Assembly (NCBI RefSeq): GCF_007748195.1
Contig: NZ_CP037920.1
Coordinates: forward strand, 4,787,800 to 4,851,799
Direction of reading: 5' to 3'
Origin: Gimesia aquarii
GTDB taxonomy: Bacteria; Planctomycetota; Planctomycetia; Planctomycetales; Planctomycetaceae
DNA length: 64,000 nucleotides
The notes beneath the pieces are model-generated. The model saw nothing but the letters and a program-made list of their open reading frames with translations. It did not search any database and was not told the origin of the DNA. The translations under genes and the position numbers were made by a program. How positions within the stretch are numbered: position 1 is the first letter of the stretch; the number at the start of each line of letters is the position of its first letter. Shown here in pieces: positions 32,583 to 37,942 of the stretch.

Positions 32583-33530
32583 ATGTCTTATCGCCTCAGT
32601 AATTTTTCACTGTATCTGATTTTTTACAGCCTCTTGATTTTTTCGATAACGAATCCCGCATTCGGTGATGCCCCCGTGAATGGCAACGCCGTCATCAAGC
32701 GAAAGGCGGGATCTTCTGAAATTGTGATCACAACAACCAATCGTTTAGCCGGTGCGATTGACTCACTCACCTGGAACGGAAAAGAATTCATTGACAGTTT
32801 TGATCATGGCCGACAACTGCAGTCCGCGGCCAGCTTTGACCTTCAATCGACAGATCCATTCTGGGCAGAACGTTATAACCCCACAGAAGCCGGTTCTCGT
32901 TCCGACGGGACAGGAAAGACCTCATCCAGTAAGCTCCTCTCGCTCCGCGCCACAGGAAACGAATTGGAAACCACGACACGCATGGCGTATTGGCTGGCGC
33001 CCGGTCAGAAGTCATCTGGTCGGCTAGCGCTCAACCAAAAAATTCTTTCAAATCATCTCGTATCCAAGCACGTCCGCATCGGCTACAAAGATCATGATCA
33101 GGTGATCGAATATCAGACGACTTTCACGGTTCCCAAGGGTGAGCAACACACTTACGCTCAATTCGAAGCACTCACCGGCTACATGCCCGCCGAGTTTGAG
33201 AAGTTTTGGACTTTTCAACCTGCAACGGGCAAGCTGGAACCGCTCAGCGATGGTCCTGGCGAGCAGAAACTACCCGTCGTCATGAGTACCAAAGACGGCG
33301 AGTACGCGATGGGTATCTTTTCTCCCGATCAACCCTCAAAGGGTTACAGACATGCGGGATATGGGCGTTTTCGCTTCAAGGCAGCCAAAGTCGTCAAATG
33401 GAACTGTGCCTTCCGCGTACGCGACCAACAGGGAATTAAACCAGGGGAATATTCCTTCCGCATGTTTGTGGCTGTCGGTACTCTGGAGGACGTCAGACAA
33501 TCACTTGTGTCACTCACTAAAGAGTTTTGA
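32583..33530 (+). CDS. Unknown secreted protein
   Basis: 315 aa with a clear signal peptide (LYLIFYSLLIFSITNPAFG, cleavage probably after FGDA). The mature part is soluble and beta-rich, with segments such as TNRLAGAIDSLTWNGKEFID and GIKPGEYSFRMFVAVGTL. This composition recalls carbohydrate-processing beta-sandwich proteins, but no catalytic motif is visible and I do not assign a family. It sits between a small unknown gene and a serine hydrolase, all on the plus strand. Confidence 0.65.
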   Translation: MSYRLSNFSLYLIFYSLLIFSITNPAFGDAPVNGNAVIKRKAGSSEIVITTTNRLAGAIDSLTWNGKEFIDSFDHGRQLQSAASFDLQSTDPFWAERYNPTEAGSRSDGTGKTSSSKLLSLRATGNELETTTRMAYWLAPGQKSSGRLALNQKILSNHLVSKHVRIGYKDHDQVIEYQTTFTVPKGEQHTYAQFEALTGYMPAEFEKFWTFQPATGKLEPLSDGPGEQKLPVVMSTKDGEYAMGIFSPDQPSKGYRHAGYGRFRFKAAKVVKWNCAFRVRDQQGIKPGEYSFRMFVAVGTLEDVRQSLVSLTKEF

Positions 33531-33616
33531 AGTGATTTGGTTACCTTGATTCATTCAAGATCTTTGGGACGCAATCAATAAATAAAGTGTTTGAAATAAA
33601 AATGGAGCGTAATTCG

Positions 33617-34741
33617 ATGAGCTGTCAATGGTCTGTTAAGCATTTGAATTTTCTACTACTAATACCCTGCCTCTTCATTGCAACACACGTCCAAGCCCAG
33701 GAGATCGCTCCTGCTGATCTGGAAACGTTTGTTGATTCCGTCGCAATGGAATCGATCGAAAAGCAAGCCAGTATTGGCTTGAGCATCGGCATTGCGCGCG
33801 GAGACCAAATTGTTCTCGCCAAGGGATATGGATCTGCTGATCTGGAACTCGATGTACCGGCAACAGAAAAAATGGTCTATCGAATTGGCTCGATTACGAA
33901 ACAGTTCACCGCCGCTGCAATTCTTTTGCTCGTCGAAGAAGGAAAAATCAAACTCGATGATCCACTAACGAAATTTCTGCCCGACTATCCCACTCAATCG
34001 CATGTGGTAACTCTACGGCATTTGTTGCAACACACTTCAGGAATCAAAAGTTTCACGAGCCTGCCTAACTACCGTCAATTGTTGTCTCAAAACGTAACGC
34101 ATGAAGATATTTTGGCACGCTTCAAAGAGATGCCGTTTAATTTTGAACCAGGTACGAAATTCAAATATTGCAACTCAGGTTACTATCTGCTGGGAATGGT
34201 CATCGAAAATGTGTCTGAACTCTCTTACGACGAATTCTTACAAACACGAGTCTTTAAACCATTAAAGATGAATACAACTTACTACGACAAAGCCAGCCCA
34301 ATCATACCGAATCGAGCCAGCGGCTATTCTCGCTGGGGTGGCAAACTCCGCAATGCGGGATTTATCAACATGAAGCAACCATTTGCAGCAGGTGCGATGG
34401 CTTCAACCGTGACTGACCTCATTCTCTGGCAGCGCGGCTTGCACAACAACAGCCTGCTCAAACCCGAATCATATCAATTAATGACTACGCGAGGCACACT
34501 TTCTGACGGTAAAGCGATCAATTATGGGCTGGGCACCTTTATACGAAAGATTAACGGCAAGCAAACCATCGGTCACGGTGGCGGCATTACGGGCTTTCGT
34601 TCCGACCTGATTTATTATCCGAAGCTAGACCTGACGATTGTCGTGCTCGCTAACTGTGATCGCACAAATCCCGCCCGAATTTCAAAACAAATCGCCGCTC
34701 ACTTGATCAAATCAAAAACAAAAAACCTGGAAAAACCATAA
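33617..34741 (+). CDS. Serine hydrolase, class C beta-lactamase/PBP4* family
   Basis: 374 aa secreted enzyme. The signal peptide is LNFLLLIPCLFIATHVQA. The SxxK nucleophile motif is SITK in YRIGSITKQFTAAAIL. The Tyr motif is YCN in FKYCNSGYYLLG. The third motif is HGG in TIGHGGGITGFRSD. GGAG nine bases before ATG 33617 chooses this start over ATG 33602 and GTG 33587. The family includes esterases, D-amino-acid peptidases and beta-lactamases, so the substrate cannot be told; an esterase or peptidase in the periplasm is most likely. Confidence 0.85.
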   Translation: MSCQWSVKHLNFLLLIPCLFIATHVQAQEIAPADLETFVDSVAMESIEKQASIGLSIGIARGDQIVLAKGYGSADLELDVPATEKMVYRIGSITKQFTAAAILLLVEEGKIKLDDPLTKFLPDYPTQSHVVTLRHLLQHTSGIKSFTSLPNYRQLLSQNVTHEDILARFKEMPFNFEPGTKFKYCNSGYYLLGMVIENVSELSYDEFLQTRVFKPLKMNTTYYDKASPIIPNRASGYSRWGGKLRNAGFINMKQPFAAGAMASTVTDLILWQRGLHNNSLLKPESYQLMTTRGTLSDGKAINYGLGTFIRKINGKQTIGHGGGITGFRSDLIYYPKLDLTIVVLANCDRTNPARISKQIAAHLIKSKTKNLEKP

Positions 34742-34780
34742 TAGTAATCCAGCATGCATCAATTTAGTTTGCCTGACAAA

Positions 34781-34820
34781 TAAAAAGGACCCACCACAGG
34801 TCTAACCTTCCTGCGGTGGG
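34781..34820 (-). terminator. Terminator after the tandem tRNA-like genes
   Basis: On the minus strand CCCACCGCAGG pairs with CCTGTGGTGGG (11 bp, one G-T pair) and runs into TCCTTTTTATTT. It ends the minus-strand unit that contains the two tRNA-like genes. Confidence 0.85.
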
Positions 34821-34888
34821 CAATGTCGCACTGAATTTCAGTCGATGATTGTTGCCGGTATCCGTTTAAGCCATCGTTTAGTTTAATC

Positions 34889-35003
34889 ACTTGAATGGCC
34901 TTACCATTAGGCCTACTCCTCCAATATTTCAAACGTTAATGGCATGTCTGACAAAAGTAAAAAAGTGGAGGAGGCGAGAATCGAACTTGCATCTTCAAGC
35001 ATT
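34889..35003 (-). tRNA. Candidate circularly permuted tRNA gene B
   Basis: In transcription order the 3' half comes first. It carries TTGAA (anticodon stem), T-arm GCAAG-TTCGATT-CTCGC (one A-C mismatch) and acceptor CTCCTCC with discriminator A at 34966. A 43-base spacer (34923-34965) follows. Then comes the 5' half: acceptor GGAGGAG (34916-34922), TA, D-arm GGCC-TAATGGTAA-GGCC, A and TTCAA. The acceptor stem is a perfect 7 bp, the D-stem a perfect 4 bp and the anticodon stem 5 bp or more. The rejoined RNA would be about 72 nt without CCA. Junction choices give anticodons GAT or AAT, both isoleucine. A 3-base variable loop and the C-G pair across the loop base are atypical, so function is not proven. 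Confidence 0.7.
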
Positions 35004-35076
35004 TTCATCCGGCATTCGAGACAACAATCAGTGCAAATGAGTCTAGAGTGATAATCTAAACTTCATTTGTGTTCGC

Positions 35077-35164
35077 AACACTTGCCTCTACCTATTGGGC
35101 TATCTCGCCGAAAATAATACAAATGGCGAGAGCAGGATTCGAACCTGCAACTGACAGTGGCGAA
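35077..35164 (-). tRNA. Candidate circularly permuted tRNA gene A
   Basis: The 3' half is first: CACT (anticodon stem), perfect T-arm GCAGG-TTCGAAT-CCTGC, acceptor TCTCGCC (35125-35131) and discriminator A at 35124. A 14-base AT-rich spacer (35110-35123) follows. Then the 5' half: acceptor GGCGAGA (35103-35109), TA, D-arm GCCCAATAGGTAGAGGC and AAGTG-TT. The acceptor stem is 7 of 7 bp. The sequence just after the 5' half (GCGAA) is complementary to that at the start of the 3' half (TTCGC). Joining TT to TTCGC gives a 7-base loop TTTTCGC with anticodon TTC (Glu-like) and a 74-nt RNA. Other junctions would give GTC, GCC or GCG. CCA is not encoded. Confidence 0.72.
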
Positions 35165-35373
35165 GAATTCAATCTTAGTCTGATACTGAATTTTGCACTC
35201 CATGTTTGAGTGCTACTCTTTGTGAGATCATAACACATACAAAACCGTTTGCAATCCCATGCTGGATCGATTGAATCGAAGCGACTGAAAGGTACAATCC
35301 GGTGCATCTCCCCTAACGATATTATTGCAGAATTGGCAGACGCATAAAGGAATGCTTCTGCCACACACTGGTT

Positions 35374-36123
35374 TCATTCAGATGGAGGTGTCACATCAAA
35401 CAAGAATTTGAATAAAGGTTGAGAAACATTAACGGATGTCACTTCCGACATATTCGCCGTCTCGCGTGCGAATTTGACAGCATCAACAATGCGGCCAACA
35501 CGTTCAAGTAAGTTACTCTTCTCTGTCGCTGGAATCGCACCTGAAAATTTGATTGTATTCCATTTACCAACAACGACATCCTCGCTGTAAGTCTCGACTT
35601 GTGCTGGATGATGTTCTGTCGCTTCGGCCTTCACATGGTTTCGCAACATTTTCTTCGTCTTATTCGTTTGTGCAGCTTCAGAGGCATAGCAATTCGCGGC
35701 ATCTGACCACTCCCAGTTCTCAGCAGGATCGAGTGTTGGCAACGAAGAAACAAACGTCTGAACGTCATGTAACTGTTTCTCAAGAAAAAGCATATAGGTC
35801 ACGGGGACATCGCTCAGTATGGTCTGGCCATCAACAACTATATCGGCAGTTGCTTTGGTGTTCGCCCAATCTTGTGTCGCCACGATGTCAAATAATCCTG
35901 CCAAAGATTTCGAGACTTCTTCGATCGCATTGGGGACAGAATACTGTATATTTTTCTTTTCTGGTGGAAATGTTTCGCCCTCATCATCCAATGGCTGATA
36001 GGTACGAGTAATCCCGTCAAACAAAGCAGACTTTTGAACTTTTTTGTATGTCTCTGTAATCTCACGAGTGGTCTTGGTTTTCTTACCATTCGCAATGGCA
36101 ATAATCTGATTCAGTTTCGACAT
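35374..36123 (-). CDS. Unknown soluble protein upstream of the tRNA-like genes
   Basis: 249 aa. The start MSKLNQIIAIANGKK at 36123 is chosen because AAGGA lies about nine bases upstream; a longer frame begins at 36150. No signal peptide or membrane helix. Charged, helical N-terminus, a middle region with YMLFLEKQLHDVQTFVSSLPTLDP, and several Trp. I do not recognise a named family with certainty. It is on the same strand as, and 175 bases upstream of, the two permuted tRNA-like genes, with no terminator between, so one transcript could carry all three. A role in their processing is only a guess from position. Confidence 0.7.
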   Translation of the reverse strand: MSKLNQIIAIANGKKTKTTREITETYKKVQKSALFDGITRTYQPLDDEGETFPPEKKNIQYSVPNAIEEVSKSLAGLFDIVATQDWANTKATADIVVDGQTILSDVPVTYMLFLEKQLHDVQTFVSSLPTLDPAENWEWSDAANCYASEAAQTNKTKKMLRNHVKAEATEHHPAQVETYSEDVVVGKWNTIKFSGAIPATEKSNLLERVGRIVDAVKFARETANMSEVTSVNVSQPLFKFLFDVTPPSE

Positions 36124-36304
36124 TCTATATTTCCTTAATTTCGGTTTCACTCTAAATCAACATTCAAATTCGAGCAAAACACCAAATGATTGTCAAGGAG
36201 GTCCTGTAATTTGCAACTCACATTAGTATGGATGACACTTCTCGTAAAACGACAAAGTCCCATCGTGTCGATATAAAAAAGAATCAGAAATAAGAATCGA
36301 TCTT

Positions 36305-36334
36305 AAAAAGGATAATTCACTGAAGTGATTATCC
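36305..36334 (-). terminator. Terminator of pckA
   Basis: On the minus strand GGATAAT-CAC pairs with GTG-A-ATTATCC around TTCA, with one bulged A, followed by TTTTT. It lies about 20 bases past the pckA stop. Confidence 0.85.
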
Positions 36335-36355
36335 CCCTCAATATCAGTCAATAAC

Positions 36356-37942
36356 TCAAACCTGAGGTGCAGCCGCGATGACTTCTTCGGAGACTCCTGA
36401 AGCGTATTTCATGAAGTTATTATTGAAGGCGGTTGCCAGTTTGACTGCGGTCTCCTTGTAAGCACTTTGATCGGCCCATGAATTATGGGGCACTAGAAGC
36501 TTGTCATCTACACCCGGGCACTTCGTAATCGTAGCCATTCCAAAAATAGGATCGATCTCTGTGGGTGCATGATTGAGAACCCCTGAATGGATGGCATCAA
36601 TGATCGCCCGTGTGGCTTTCAGGCTGATGCGTTCGCCCACACCATACGCGCCCCCATTCCAACCGGTGTTGACCAACCAGACGTTTGCATTGTACTTCTT
36701 GATTTTCTCCGCCAGCAGATCCGCATATTTTCCCGGATGCCAGACTAGGAACGGTCCGCCAAAACAGGGAGAAAAAGTCGCCTCAGGTTCTGTGACTCCC
36801 ATTTCAGTGCCAGCAACCTTTGCAGTATATCCGCTGATGAAGTGGTACATGGCCTGCTCAGGAGTCAATTTGCTGACAGGAGGTAGCACACCGAATGCAT
36901 CGCAGGTGAGGAAAATGACATCATTAGGATGATCGGCAACACACGGGATTTTTGCACTGGGCATGTATTCTATCGGGTAAGCACCACGTGTATTTTGTGT
37001 GAAGCTCGTATCATCAAAGTCCACATGATGATCGGCTTCGTCATACACCACGTTTTCCAGTACCGCGCCGTAACGCAATGCCTGAAAAATTTCTGGCTCA
37101 TTTTCACGTGAGAGATAGATCGCTTTCGCATAGCAGCCACCTTCGATATTGAAGATACCATTGTCGGTCCAGCAGTGCTCATCATCGCCAATCAAATATC
37201 GCTTGGGGTCGGCTGAAAGCGTTGTCTTTCCGGTTCCTGAAAGTCCAAATAGTACTGACGACCGCCCCGACTCGCGATCCGCGGTTGCCGAACAATGCAT
37301 CGACAAGATTCCGCGCTTGGGCATCAGATAGTTCATGACGGTGAAGATTCCCTTCTTCATTTCGCCTGCGTACTCTGTGCCCAGAATCACAATCTCGCCA
37401 TCCTCAACACTCAGATCCACGCTTGTCTTAGAAGTCATGCCGGTTGTGAATCGATTCGCGGGAAACGTTCCAGCATTGTAGATCACATAATCAGGCTTGC
37501 CGAAGTTTTCCAGTTGTTCCTCAGTAGGTCGAATCAACATGTTATGCATAAAAAGAGCATGATAAGGACGCGAGCAGATCACACGAACTTTAATTTGATA
37601 TTCAGGATCCCAACCGGCAAAGGCATCAATCACATATAAATGGGGGCAGATATTCAGATAGTCGGTTGCCCGTTCGCGGTTGCAGAAAAAGGCATGCTGA
37701 TCGAGTGGATAATTGACATCTCCCCACCAGATATCCGCTTCCGATTTTTTATGTTTAACGACCCGTTTATCTTTGGGAGACCGACCTGTTTTGTCGCCAG
37801 AATAGGCAATCAGTGCTCCGGTATCCGAAATCGAAGCTCCCGGCTCATAGCGAATGGCTTCTTCATATAACATCGAGGGATCAGGGTTCCGCATGACCCA
37901 TTCCACGTTAATTCCATGCTCGGATAGATCAAACGACGACAT
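36356..37942 (-). CDS. pckA: Phosphoenolpyruvate carboxykinase (ATP)
   Basis: Converts oxaloacetate and ATP to phosphoenolpyruvate, the entry step of gluconeogenesis. 528 aa, normal for the ATP form. GLSGTGKTTLS near residue 232 is the kinase P-loop. IGDDEHCWTDNGIFNIEGGCYAK is the metal-binding signature, and CSRPYHALFMHNMLIRPT is the usual oxaloacetate-side segment. The GTP-type signature is absent. It has its own terminator and a 190-base upstream gap, so it is monocistronic. Confidence 0.96.
   Translation of the reverse strand: MSSFDLSEHGINVEWVMRNPDPSMLYEEAIRYEPGASISDTGALIAYSGDKTGRSPKDKRVVKHKKSEADIWWGDVNYPLDQHAFFCNRERATDYLNICPHLYVIDAFAGWDPEYQIKVRVICSRPYHALFMHNMLIRPTEEQLENFGKPDYVIYNAGTFPANRFTTGMTSKTSVDLSVEDGEIVILGTEYAGEMKKGIFTVMNYLMPKRGILSMHCSATADRESGRSSVLFGLSGTGKTTLSADPKRYLIGDDEHCWTDNGIFNIEGGCYAKAIYLSRENEPEIFQALRYGAVLENVVYDEADHHVDFDDTSFTQNTRGAYPIEYMPSAKIPCVADHPNDVIFLTCDAFGVLPPVSKLTPEQAMYHFISGYTAKVAGTEMGVTEPEATFSPCFGGPFLVWHPGKYADLLAEKIKKYNANVWLVNTGWNGGAYGVGERISLKATRAIIDAIHSGVLNHAPTEIDPIFGMATITKCPGVDDKLLVPHNSWADQSAYKETAVKLATAFNNNFMKYASGVSEEVIAAAPQV

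Follow-up and report, generated by a model that had tools for sequence, protein, structure and literature searches.

Two tRNA-like modules that lie in tandem on the minus strand, just downstream of a gene for a DUF7873 protein on the same strand, most probably belong to a single structured non-coding RNA as its two heads: tRNA mimics that would work with DUF7873 as a Y RNA works with Ro60. They were found in a 64-kb stretch of DNA, which will be called the window. Computation provides several kinds of observation that bear on this reading: the tandem order of the modules, their conservation and covariation, the linkage and co-occurrence of the RNA with DUF7873, the lack of a detectable Ro60, and a regular period of UNA triplets.

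On the minus strand, each module runs from a T-arm through the acceptor 3' strand, a loop, the acceptor 5' strand, and TA to a D-arm. Module 1 (35084..35148) begins with the T-arm GCAGG-TTCGAAT-CCTGC (35148-35132), continues through the acceptor 3' strand TCTCGCC (35131-35125) followed by A, a 15-nt loop (35124-35110), and the acceptor 5' strand GGCGAGA (35109-35103), and ends, after TA, with a D-arm containing GG (35100-35084). Module 2 (34897..34990) is built in the same way from the T-arm GCAAG-TTCGATT-CTCGC (34990-34974, with four of the five T-stem pairs), the acceptor 3' strand CTCCTCC (34973-34967) followed by A, a 44-nt loop (34966-34923), the acceptor 5' strand GGAGGAG (34922-34916), TA, and the D-arm (34913-34897). 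The original prediction had described two modules with the 3' half first and with these acceptor, T-loop, TA, D-arm, and discriminator A features, and both the sequence and a motif scan confirm that description.

The strict motif used in the scan (T-loop TTCRANN, at least 4/5 T-stem pairs, 7/7 acceptor pairs, and a loop of less than 120 nt) matches the two strands of the 64-kb window only at modules 1 and 2. Module 1 is also seen as a sub-threshold match to the Rfam model of YrlA, and module 2 through R1, a covariance model built from module 2. ARAGORN finds no tRNA and no tmRNA in the window, and Rfam 15 at gathering thresholds yields no match within it. The strict motif was met in none of 1530 dinucleotide-shuffled downstream kilobases of relatives (0/730 viral, 0/800 bacterial), and since it is absent from all shuffles, chance is excluded as its source. 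The prediction's argument that an order seen twice speaks against chance or decay is thus upheld by the shuffles and by the retention of the order with compensatory changes. The 471-nt stretch that holds the RNA folds better than all of 100 shuffled versions (z -4.0). A terminator-like hairpin followed by a run of T (34779..34802, minus strand; a pattern match only) may mark the end of the RNA unit; such signals after module 2 are not general among relatives (6/58 vs 8/290 shuffles).

The order of the modules is a known form of tRNA mimicry, since PMC8394870 describes YrlA as tethering Rsr (Ro60) to PNPase and as consisting of a stem and of a domain similar to the D, T, and acceptor arms of tRNA, and PMC11472068 describes a bacterial Y RNA structure that superposes on tRNAs as a circular permutation. 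Because permuted mimicry of tRNA had thus been described before in a bacterial RNA, what is novel lies in the partnership with DUF7873.

Conservation was sought first of all at the level of DNA, where one of 39 relatives searched gave a match: G016, a member of the genus, 79% identical. It keeps both modules in the same order. Its module 1 has the acceptor GGCGAGG/CCTCGCC (GGCGAGA/TCTCGCC in the window), and its module 2 has GAAGGGG/CCCCTTC (GGAGGAG/CTCCTCC in the window); the differences are compensatory in both. In an alignment of 21 sequences of module 2 with its outer helices (the window copy left out), 96.0% of the cells are paired, 26 of the 29 pairs show changes on both sides, and the covariation score is 0.767 (vs 0.233 for shuffles, while slid pairings score no higher than 0.154). 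The prediction had offered a comparison with relatives as a check, and both G016 and this alignment show the order conserved with compensatory changes. R1 itself matches the window at module 2 (34845-35038, 53.7 bits, E 6.6e-11) and at module 1 (35050-35191, 37.7 bits), and it finds matches in 76 of 87 further sources at E <=0.1, some of which are ordinary tRNA genes.

The regions below the heads are also structured. Under module 2, two outer helices flank a conserved internal loop, AUCGACyG opposite yUUAAACG. In the window, the 3' strand of the loop, UUAAACG, lies at 34863..34869 (minus strand, located through the consensus yUUAAACG of alignment A5), and the 5' strand, UCUCGAAUGCC, lies near 35021-35011. 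By the alignment, the outer helices and the internal loop are under selection. Closer to the head of module 2, a listing of helices gives one of 8 bp at the anticodon-stem position (5' strand 34994..35001, partner 34895-34888, minus strand). It is unbroken, its first pair lying 1 nt past the D-stem on one side and 3 nt ahead of the T-stem on the other, and it runs through the would-be anticodon loop, so that its eight pairs take up the space that a 5-bp stem with a 7-nt anticodon loop would need. Below module 1, the 5' strand of a stem (35156..35164, minus strand) consists of TTCGC (35164-35160), which can pair with GCGAA (35076-35072), and CACT (35159-35156), which can pair with AGTG (35082-35079), both across the site where an anticodon stem and loop would lie, with a 2-nt bulge between the two. 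RNAalifold, given the alignment of module 1, recovers the tRNA-like part alone and no consensus outer stem. Among the modules generally, the flanks show a tendency to pair near the anticodon-stem position. The best 5-bp diagonal shared by them, which starts 1 nt past the D-stem and 4-5 nt ahead of the T-stem, is paired in 0.54 and 0.63 of modules vs a median of 0.36, and the mean longest helix at this position is modestly above that of shuffles (6.05 vs 5.67 for copy 1, 7.19 vs 5.90 for copy 2).

The permuted tRNA genes known from algae and from an archaeon also have the 3' half ahead of the 5' half. One might read the modules, with the original prediction, as genuine tRNA genes in circularly permuted order, the transcripts of which would be cut and ligated and then serve in decoding. 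The perfect acceptor stems, the consensus T-loops and D-loops, and the tandem repetition would suit such genes. So, in part, would rejoining the halves in silico: ARAGORN accepts 244 of 414 and 65 of 320 joins, above the means obtained with shuffled flanks (129 and 32). The shuffled ranges (7-292 and 0-96) cover the observed counts, however, so the exercise is uninformative. Nor does the pairing of the flanks in itself exclude a spliced precursor, which it also fits, because the splicing motifs of permuted pre-tRNAs pair the flanks too. What makes this reading very improbable is the helix of eight unbroken pairs that starts from the anticodon-stem position in module 2 of the window, the outer helices and conserved internal loop that are under selection, and the presence of 70 ordinary tRNA matches in the genome. 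The algal and archaeal genes differ from the RNA considered here in that the latter has covarying outer helices, a conserved internal loop, and a linked protein gene. Of the prediction, then, the permuted order survives as real, selected, and twice present, while tRNA genes with a splicing route are unsupported in view of the covarying outer helices and the 8-bp helix; the rejoined lengths of 74 and 72 nt had assumed a join in an anticodon loop for which no support was found. A decayed tandem tRNA array, in which matched halves were left by chance, has a negligible probability. A tandem duplication that lost its outer halves would indeed leave a 3' half, a spacer, and a 5' half, but the order and the compensatory changes are kept in many genomes and phages.

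The linkage to DUF7873 extends far beyond the window. In viral contigs, the best 80 of 357 relatives gave 73 distinct downstream stretches, of which 39 contain two strict modules, 25 contain one, and nine contain none (at least one in 64/73). The controls gave one strict match in the upstream kilobases of 71 loci and one on the reverse strand, besides the empty viral shuffles. When named bacterial genomes were searched, a single protein as query brought up no relative and alignment A3 brought up at least 545; the best 80 of these comprise 37 loci with two strict modules, 35 with one, and eight with none (at least one in 72/80), and strict matches number zero upstream in 72 loci and zero on the reverse strand, as they do in the bacterial shuffles. 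In neither set of best 80 (of 357 viral and at least 545 bacterial relatives) does a downstream kilobase ever hold more than two strict heads. If at least 6/7 acceptor pairs are asked for, tandem pairs are found at 59 of 99 DUF7873 loci, and the spacing of the modules is 143-160 nt in 45 of the 59.

Phages of Gordonia, Rhodococcus, Arthrobacter, Pseudanabaena, and Klebsiella have a tandem pair after DUF7873, and so do Streptomyces and Nonomuraea records. Three Rhizobium phages and two Vibrio phages have one strict module each, and a Microcoleus phage has overlapping matches alone, 2 kb from DUF7873. (In that phage, DUF7873 is separated from the tRNA-like matches by a HEARO RNA (Rfam RF02033, 129 bits; L104 3453-3662) and an ORF.) Among bacteria, modules are present in Streptomyces, Nocardia, Micromonospora, and the cyanobacterium Okeania, for example, and in records named as Planctomycetaceae, Ktedonobacterales, Verrucomicrobiaceae, Armatimonadota, Polyangiaceae, and deltaproteobacteria. 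The eight of 80 bacterial loci lacking a strict module include three Herpetosiphon records and one record of a cyanobacterium other than Okeania. Ordinary tRNA genes are found near DUF7873 at 23 of 72 viral loci and at five of 11 phage or plasmid loci, and at none of 16 loci in the window's own class, where the flanks were shorter; this hints at tRNA biology in the phages.

The association of RNA and protein does not require that they be neighbors. DUF7873 is present in 19 of 248 genomes of the class, in 73 phage records (including some duplicates), and in four records of a plasmid collection. One family was examined through 95 genomes, 22 with DUF7873 and 73 without; a sequence signature of the RNA is present in 19 of the former and in none of the latter (Fisher 3e-17, the lineages not being independent). 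The signature was derived from genomes already known to have DUF7873, so the 19/22 is partly by construction, and the independent part of the result consists of the 0/73 and four new genomes (G266, G269, G272, and G295). By the listed coordinates, the signature is not adjacent to DUF7873 in 10 of the 19 genomes. In the class, eight of the 19 genomes have no module beside DUF7873, and in seven of those eight the pair is elsewhere (G035, G079, G091, G122, G229, G232, and G066), present even in G066, where the DUF7873 match is in two pieces. The three family genomes that have DUF7873 but not the signature are G282, whose pair adjoins DUF7873 and is missed by the signature; G280, with no module in the stretch that was examined; and G113, where an internal stop interrupts the reading of DUF7873 and no pair was found. 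G113 is also the eighth of the class genomes without a module beside DUF7873. Linkage and co-occurrence together constitute the strongest evidence that DUF7873 and the RNA work together.

The set is accessory. By blastn, a segment of the window (33528..36359) that holds DUF7873, the RNA, and a gene of the Beta-lactamase family is absent at this site from G002, a genome near-identical to that of the window (98% in a 641-nt part of the PEPCK gene): the match to G002 reaches 36360 and resumes from 33527, with 53 nt between. Nowhere in G002 is there a match to DUF7873. In G016, DUF7873 and the RNA adjoin the same PEPCK gene. The Beta-lactamase-family gene, a serine hydrolase according to Pfam, occupies 33587-34741 on the plus strand.

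The DUF7873 gene of the window (35374..36123, minus strand) was recognized through Pfam PF25283 (E 1.7e-102, 342.8 bits). Read from a conserved ATG at 36123, it encodes 249 amino acids, and the alignment with phage homologues begins at MSKLNQI; a GTG-started reading frame extends to 36150. At the limits used, profile A3 or three members of the family gave no match to PDB sequences, PHROGs, NCBIfam, or PADLOC, and no paper on DUF7873 was found in the open-licence PMC literature. An AlphaFold model of the protein is confident (pLDDT 92.4, pTM 0.76) but matches no solved fold convincingly: Foldseek against the PDB gave nothing at E <=0.001. CRISPR chains of the Cas7 type headed the PDB matches (E 0.007, probability 0.15, rmsd 21). 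Cas7 binds RNA with a 6-nt spacing, but no Cas7 is among the VIA-align matches listed for the model, so no claim of a likeness to Cas7 is made. The best match among viral structures is an uncharacterized protein of a crAss-like phage (probability 1.00, TM 0.44/0.59).

The RNA has a regular spacing of its own. Upstream of module 1, a scan for triplets finds four UNA triplets spaced by exactly 6 nt (35169..35189, minus strand). Over 58 loci, pairs of UNA in this region number 137 at lag 6 (14 expected), 77 at lag 12 (12 expected), and 45 at lag 18 (10 expected), and a control region shows no excess at lag 6 (19 vs 17 expected). In 71 bacterial loci the corresponding figures are 120 vs 5.2, 75 vs 5.0, and 51 vs 3.6. 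The excess at lag 6 is absent from 21 modules of Ro60-linked YrlA. Such regularity suggests repeated contacts with a protein oligomer.

How does the RNA differ from YrlA? Both have a permuted tRNA-like head whose capped acceptor stem sits on a stem, both are often tandem, and both lie beside the gene for a partner protein. It is improbable, nonetheless, that the window holds an ordinary YrlA that binds Ro60, with DUF7873 an incidental neighbor. At permissive thresholds, the whole of the Rfam YrlA model RF02553 does align with module 1 (35.8 bits) and with its counterpart in G016 (38.4 bits), both under the gathering score of 69. Missing that score is a weak test, because Ro60-linked YrlA in the genus miss it too, their best matches near Ro60 scoring 40.5-48.4 bits and being often tandem as well; one member of the family, G042, passes it. 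R1 gives the best Ro60-linked YrlA 53.5 bits and module 2 of the window 53.7 bits, so score alone cannot separate the two. What does argue against an ordinary YrlA is that no Ro60 is detected. Ro60 (TROVE) was detected in 15 of 59 genomes searched, the window genome not among them, and a Ro60 protein of the genus matches nine of 17 genus genomes, again not that of the window, which is a single contig of 7.4 Mb. G016 carries both kinds of RNA: one pair, of YrlA, lies near Ro60, and another, which resembles that of the window, lies beside DUF7873. The stems differ as well: Ro60-linked YrlA in the genus has the motif GACCGACUGCC with CUUCGUCGGU, which by inspection is not seen in the window RNA, whose stem motif is UCGA / UUAAACG. 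Furthermore, the RNA tracks DUF7873, and UNA triplets every 6 nt, not seen in the 21 YrlA controls, belong to it, as does the limit of two strict heads per downstream kilobase.

Another alternative overlaps with the reading as tRNA mimics that partner DUF7873. Perhaps the RNA is a precursor in which RNase P and 3' processing open the capped acceptor stems, leaving a tRNA-like RNA in two pieces that ends in CCA, something resembling permuted two-piece tmRNA without the tag reading frame. This we consider unlikely, though less so than an ordinary YrlA. NCCA stands directly behind the acceptor 3' strand in 25 of 59 first modules and 15 of 59 second modules; at other offsets it occurs 0-3 times, except for 14 at an offset where the acceptor end GCC-A itself produces it. 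Where ordinary tRNA genes are present as well (17 loci), NCCA is found in 18 of 34 modules vs 13 of 118 tRNA genes. Given this placement, many relatives probably make use of a CCA-like end or of its recognition. Against the precursor, the modules of the window show ATTT and ACTT instead of NCCA, and many loops are of 6-8 nt, which may be tight for cleavage. As for permuted (two-piece) tmRNA proper, it shares with the RNA the loop-closed acceptor stem and, in many relatives, the NCCA after the acceptor 3' strand, but RF04321 gives 16.9 bits vs a gathering score of 47, ARAGORN finds no tmRNA, and the RNA has two heads; permuted tmRNA was accordingly rejected.

The RNA that works with DUF7873 would then be about 400 nt long, transcribed from the minus strand just downstream of the protein gene, stable, and two-headed. 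Each head would mimic the acceptor stem, T-arm, and D-arm that make up the upper half of a tRNA, in circularly permuted form, its acceptor stem closed by a loop and an interrupted stem taking the place of the anticodon arm. DUF7873, probably as an oligomer, would bind the RNA stem and the UNA region and so hold two tRNA mimics in a particle like that of Ro60 with a Y RNA, with another protein. That there is such a DUF7873-RNA particle strikes us as likely, its binding and function being surmised. The heads may engage enzymes that recognize tRNA, and they could bind those that see the elbow and acceptor. In phages, the likeliest use would be as a decoy or as a guard of the tRNA pool, which is a guess and a tentative one. 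A competitive-inhibitor role for the tRNA-like domain of YrlA, against anticodon nuclease, is raised in PMC7790460. More doubtful still is a broader proposal, that phages and several bacterial phyla have in common a class of RNP in which DUF7873 sits on the UNA hexads of its own RNA, displaying two mimics whose ends, processed to CCA in many lineages, engage translation or tRNA surveillance, for example to guard against defenses that target tRNA. No description of an RNP class with DUF7873 was found in the open-licence PMC literature, nor was anything on the two-headed RNA found there among the papers listed on Y RNA, YrlA, or permuted tRNA.

If DUF7873 is indeed a second protein with a two-headed tRNA mimic, then it would widen a form of tRNA mimicry, that of bacterial Y RNA, which is tied to Ro60 in PMC11472068, PMC8394870, and PMC7790460. 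It would do so over many taxa: among named bacteria (the best 80 of at least 545), Actinomycetota, Planctomycetes, Chloroflexi, Cyanobacteria, Armatimonadota, and others, and phages besides. DUF7873 gains a concrete candidate for a partner, and the Streptomyces and Gordonia phages offer small culturable systems in which the purpose of tRNA mimicry could be pursued. The RNA may also explain the 'tRNA-Stop(tta)' annotations in two Klebsiella jumbo phages (L106 3513-3596 and L194 3516-3599), which overlap module 2 and are probably misannotations.

A few other RNAs deserve mention. Gordonia phage Phendrix has a strong match to tmRNA (Rfam RF00023, 89 bits; L099 572-1100) that is missing from the feature table of this stretch. 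Arrays of up to four permuted modules with the flank motif GTACAAAC / CUUGUACGG occur at L050 1364-1947, L225 1015-1556, L226, and L227 (in G035 and G091, for example). Ro60 was not found in G035, a carrier of these arrays, and they are possibly a third kind of tRNA-mimic RNA. Tandem permuted modules with the flank motif AAGGGUUACUU / UCCUUUAUCG or similar lie at L067 1363-1567 (G038) and L239 1390-1578 (G152), those of G038 about 0.8 kb from a TROVE match. Finally, the capped acceptor stem of module 1 has loops of 90-101 nt at L083 2862, L089 1276, L238 1320, and L246 703, so the loop tolerates insertions; at L083 and L089, inverted repeats are visible by eye in these long loops.
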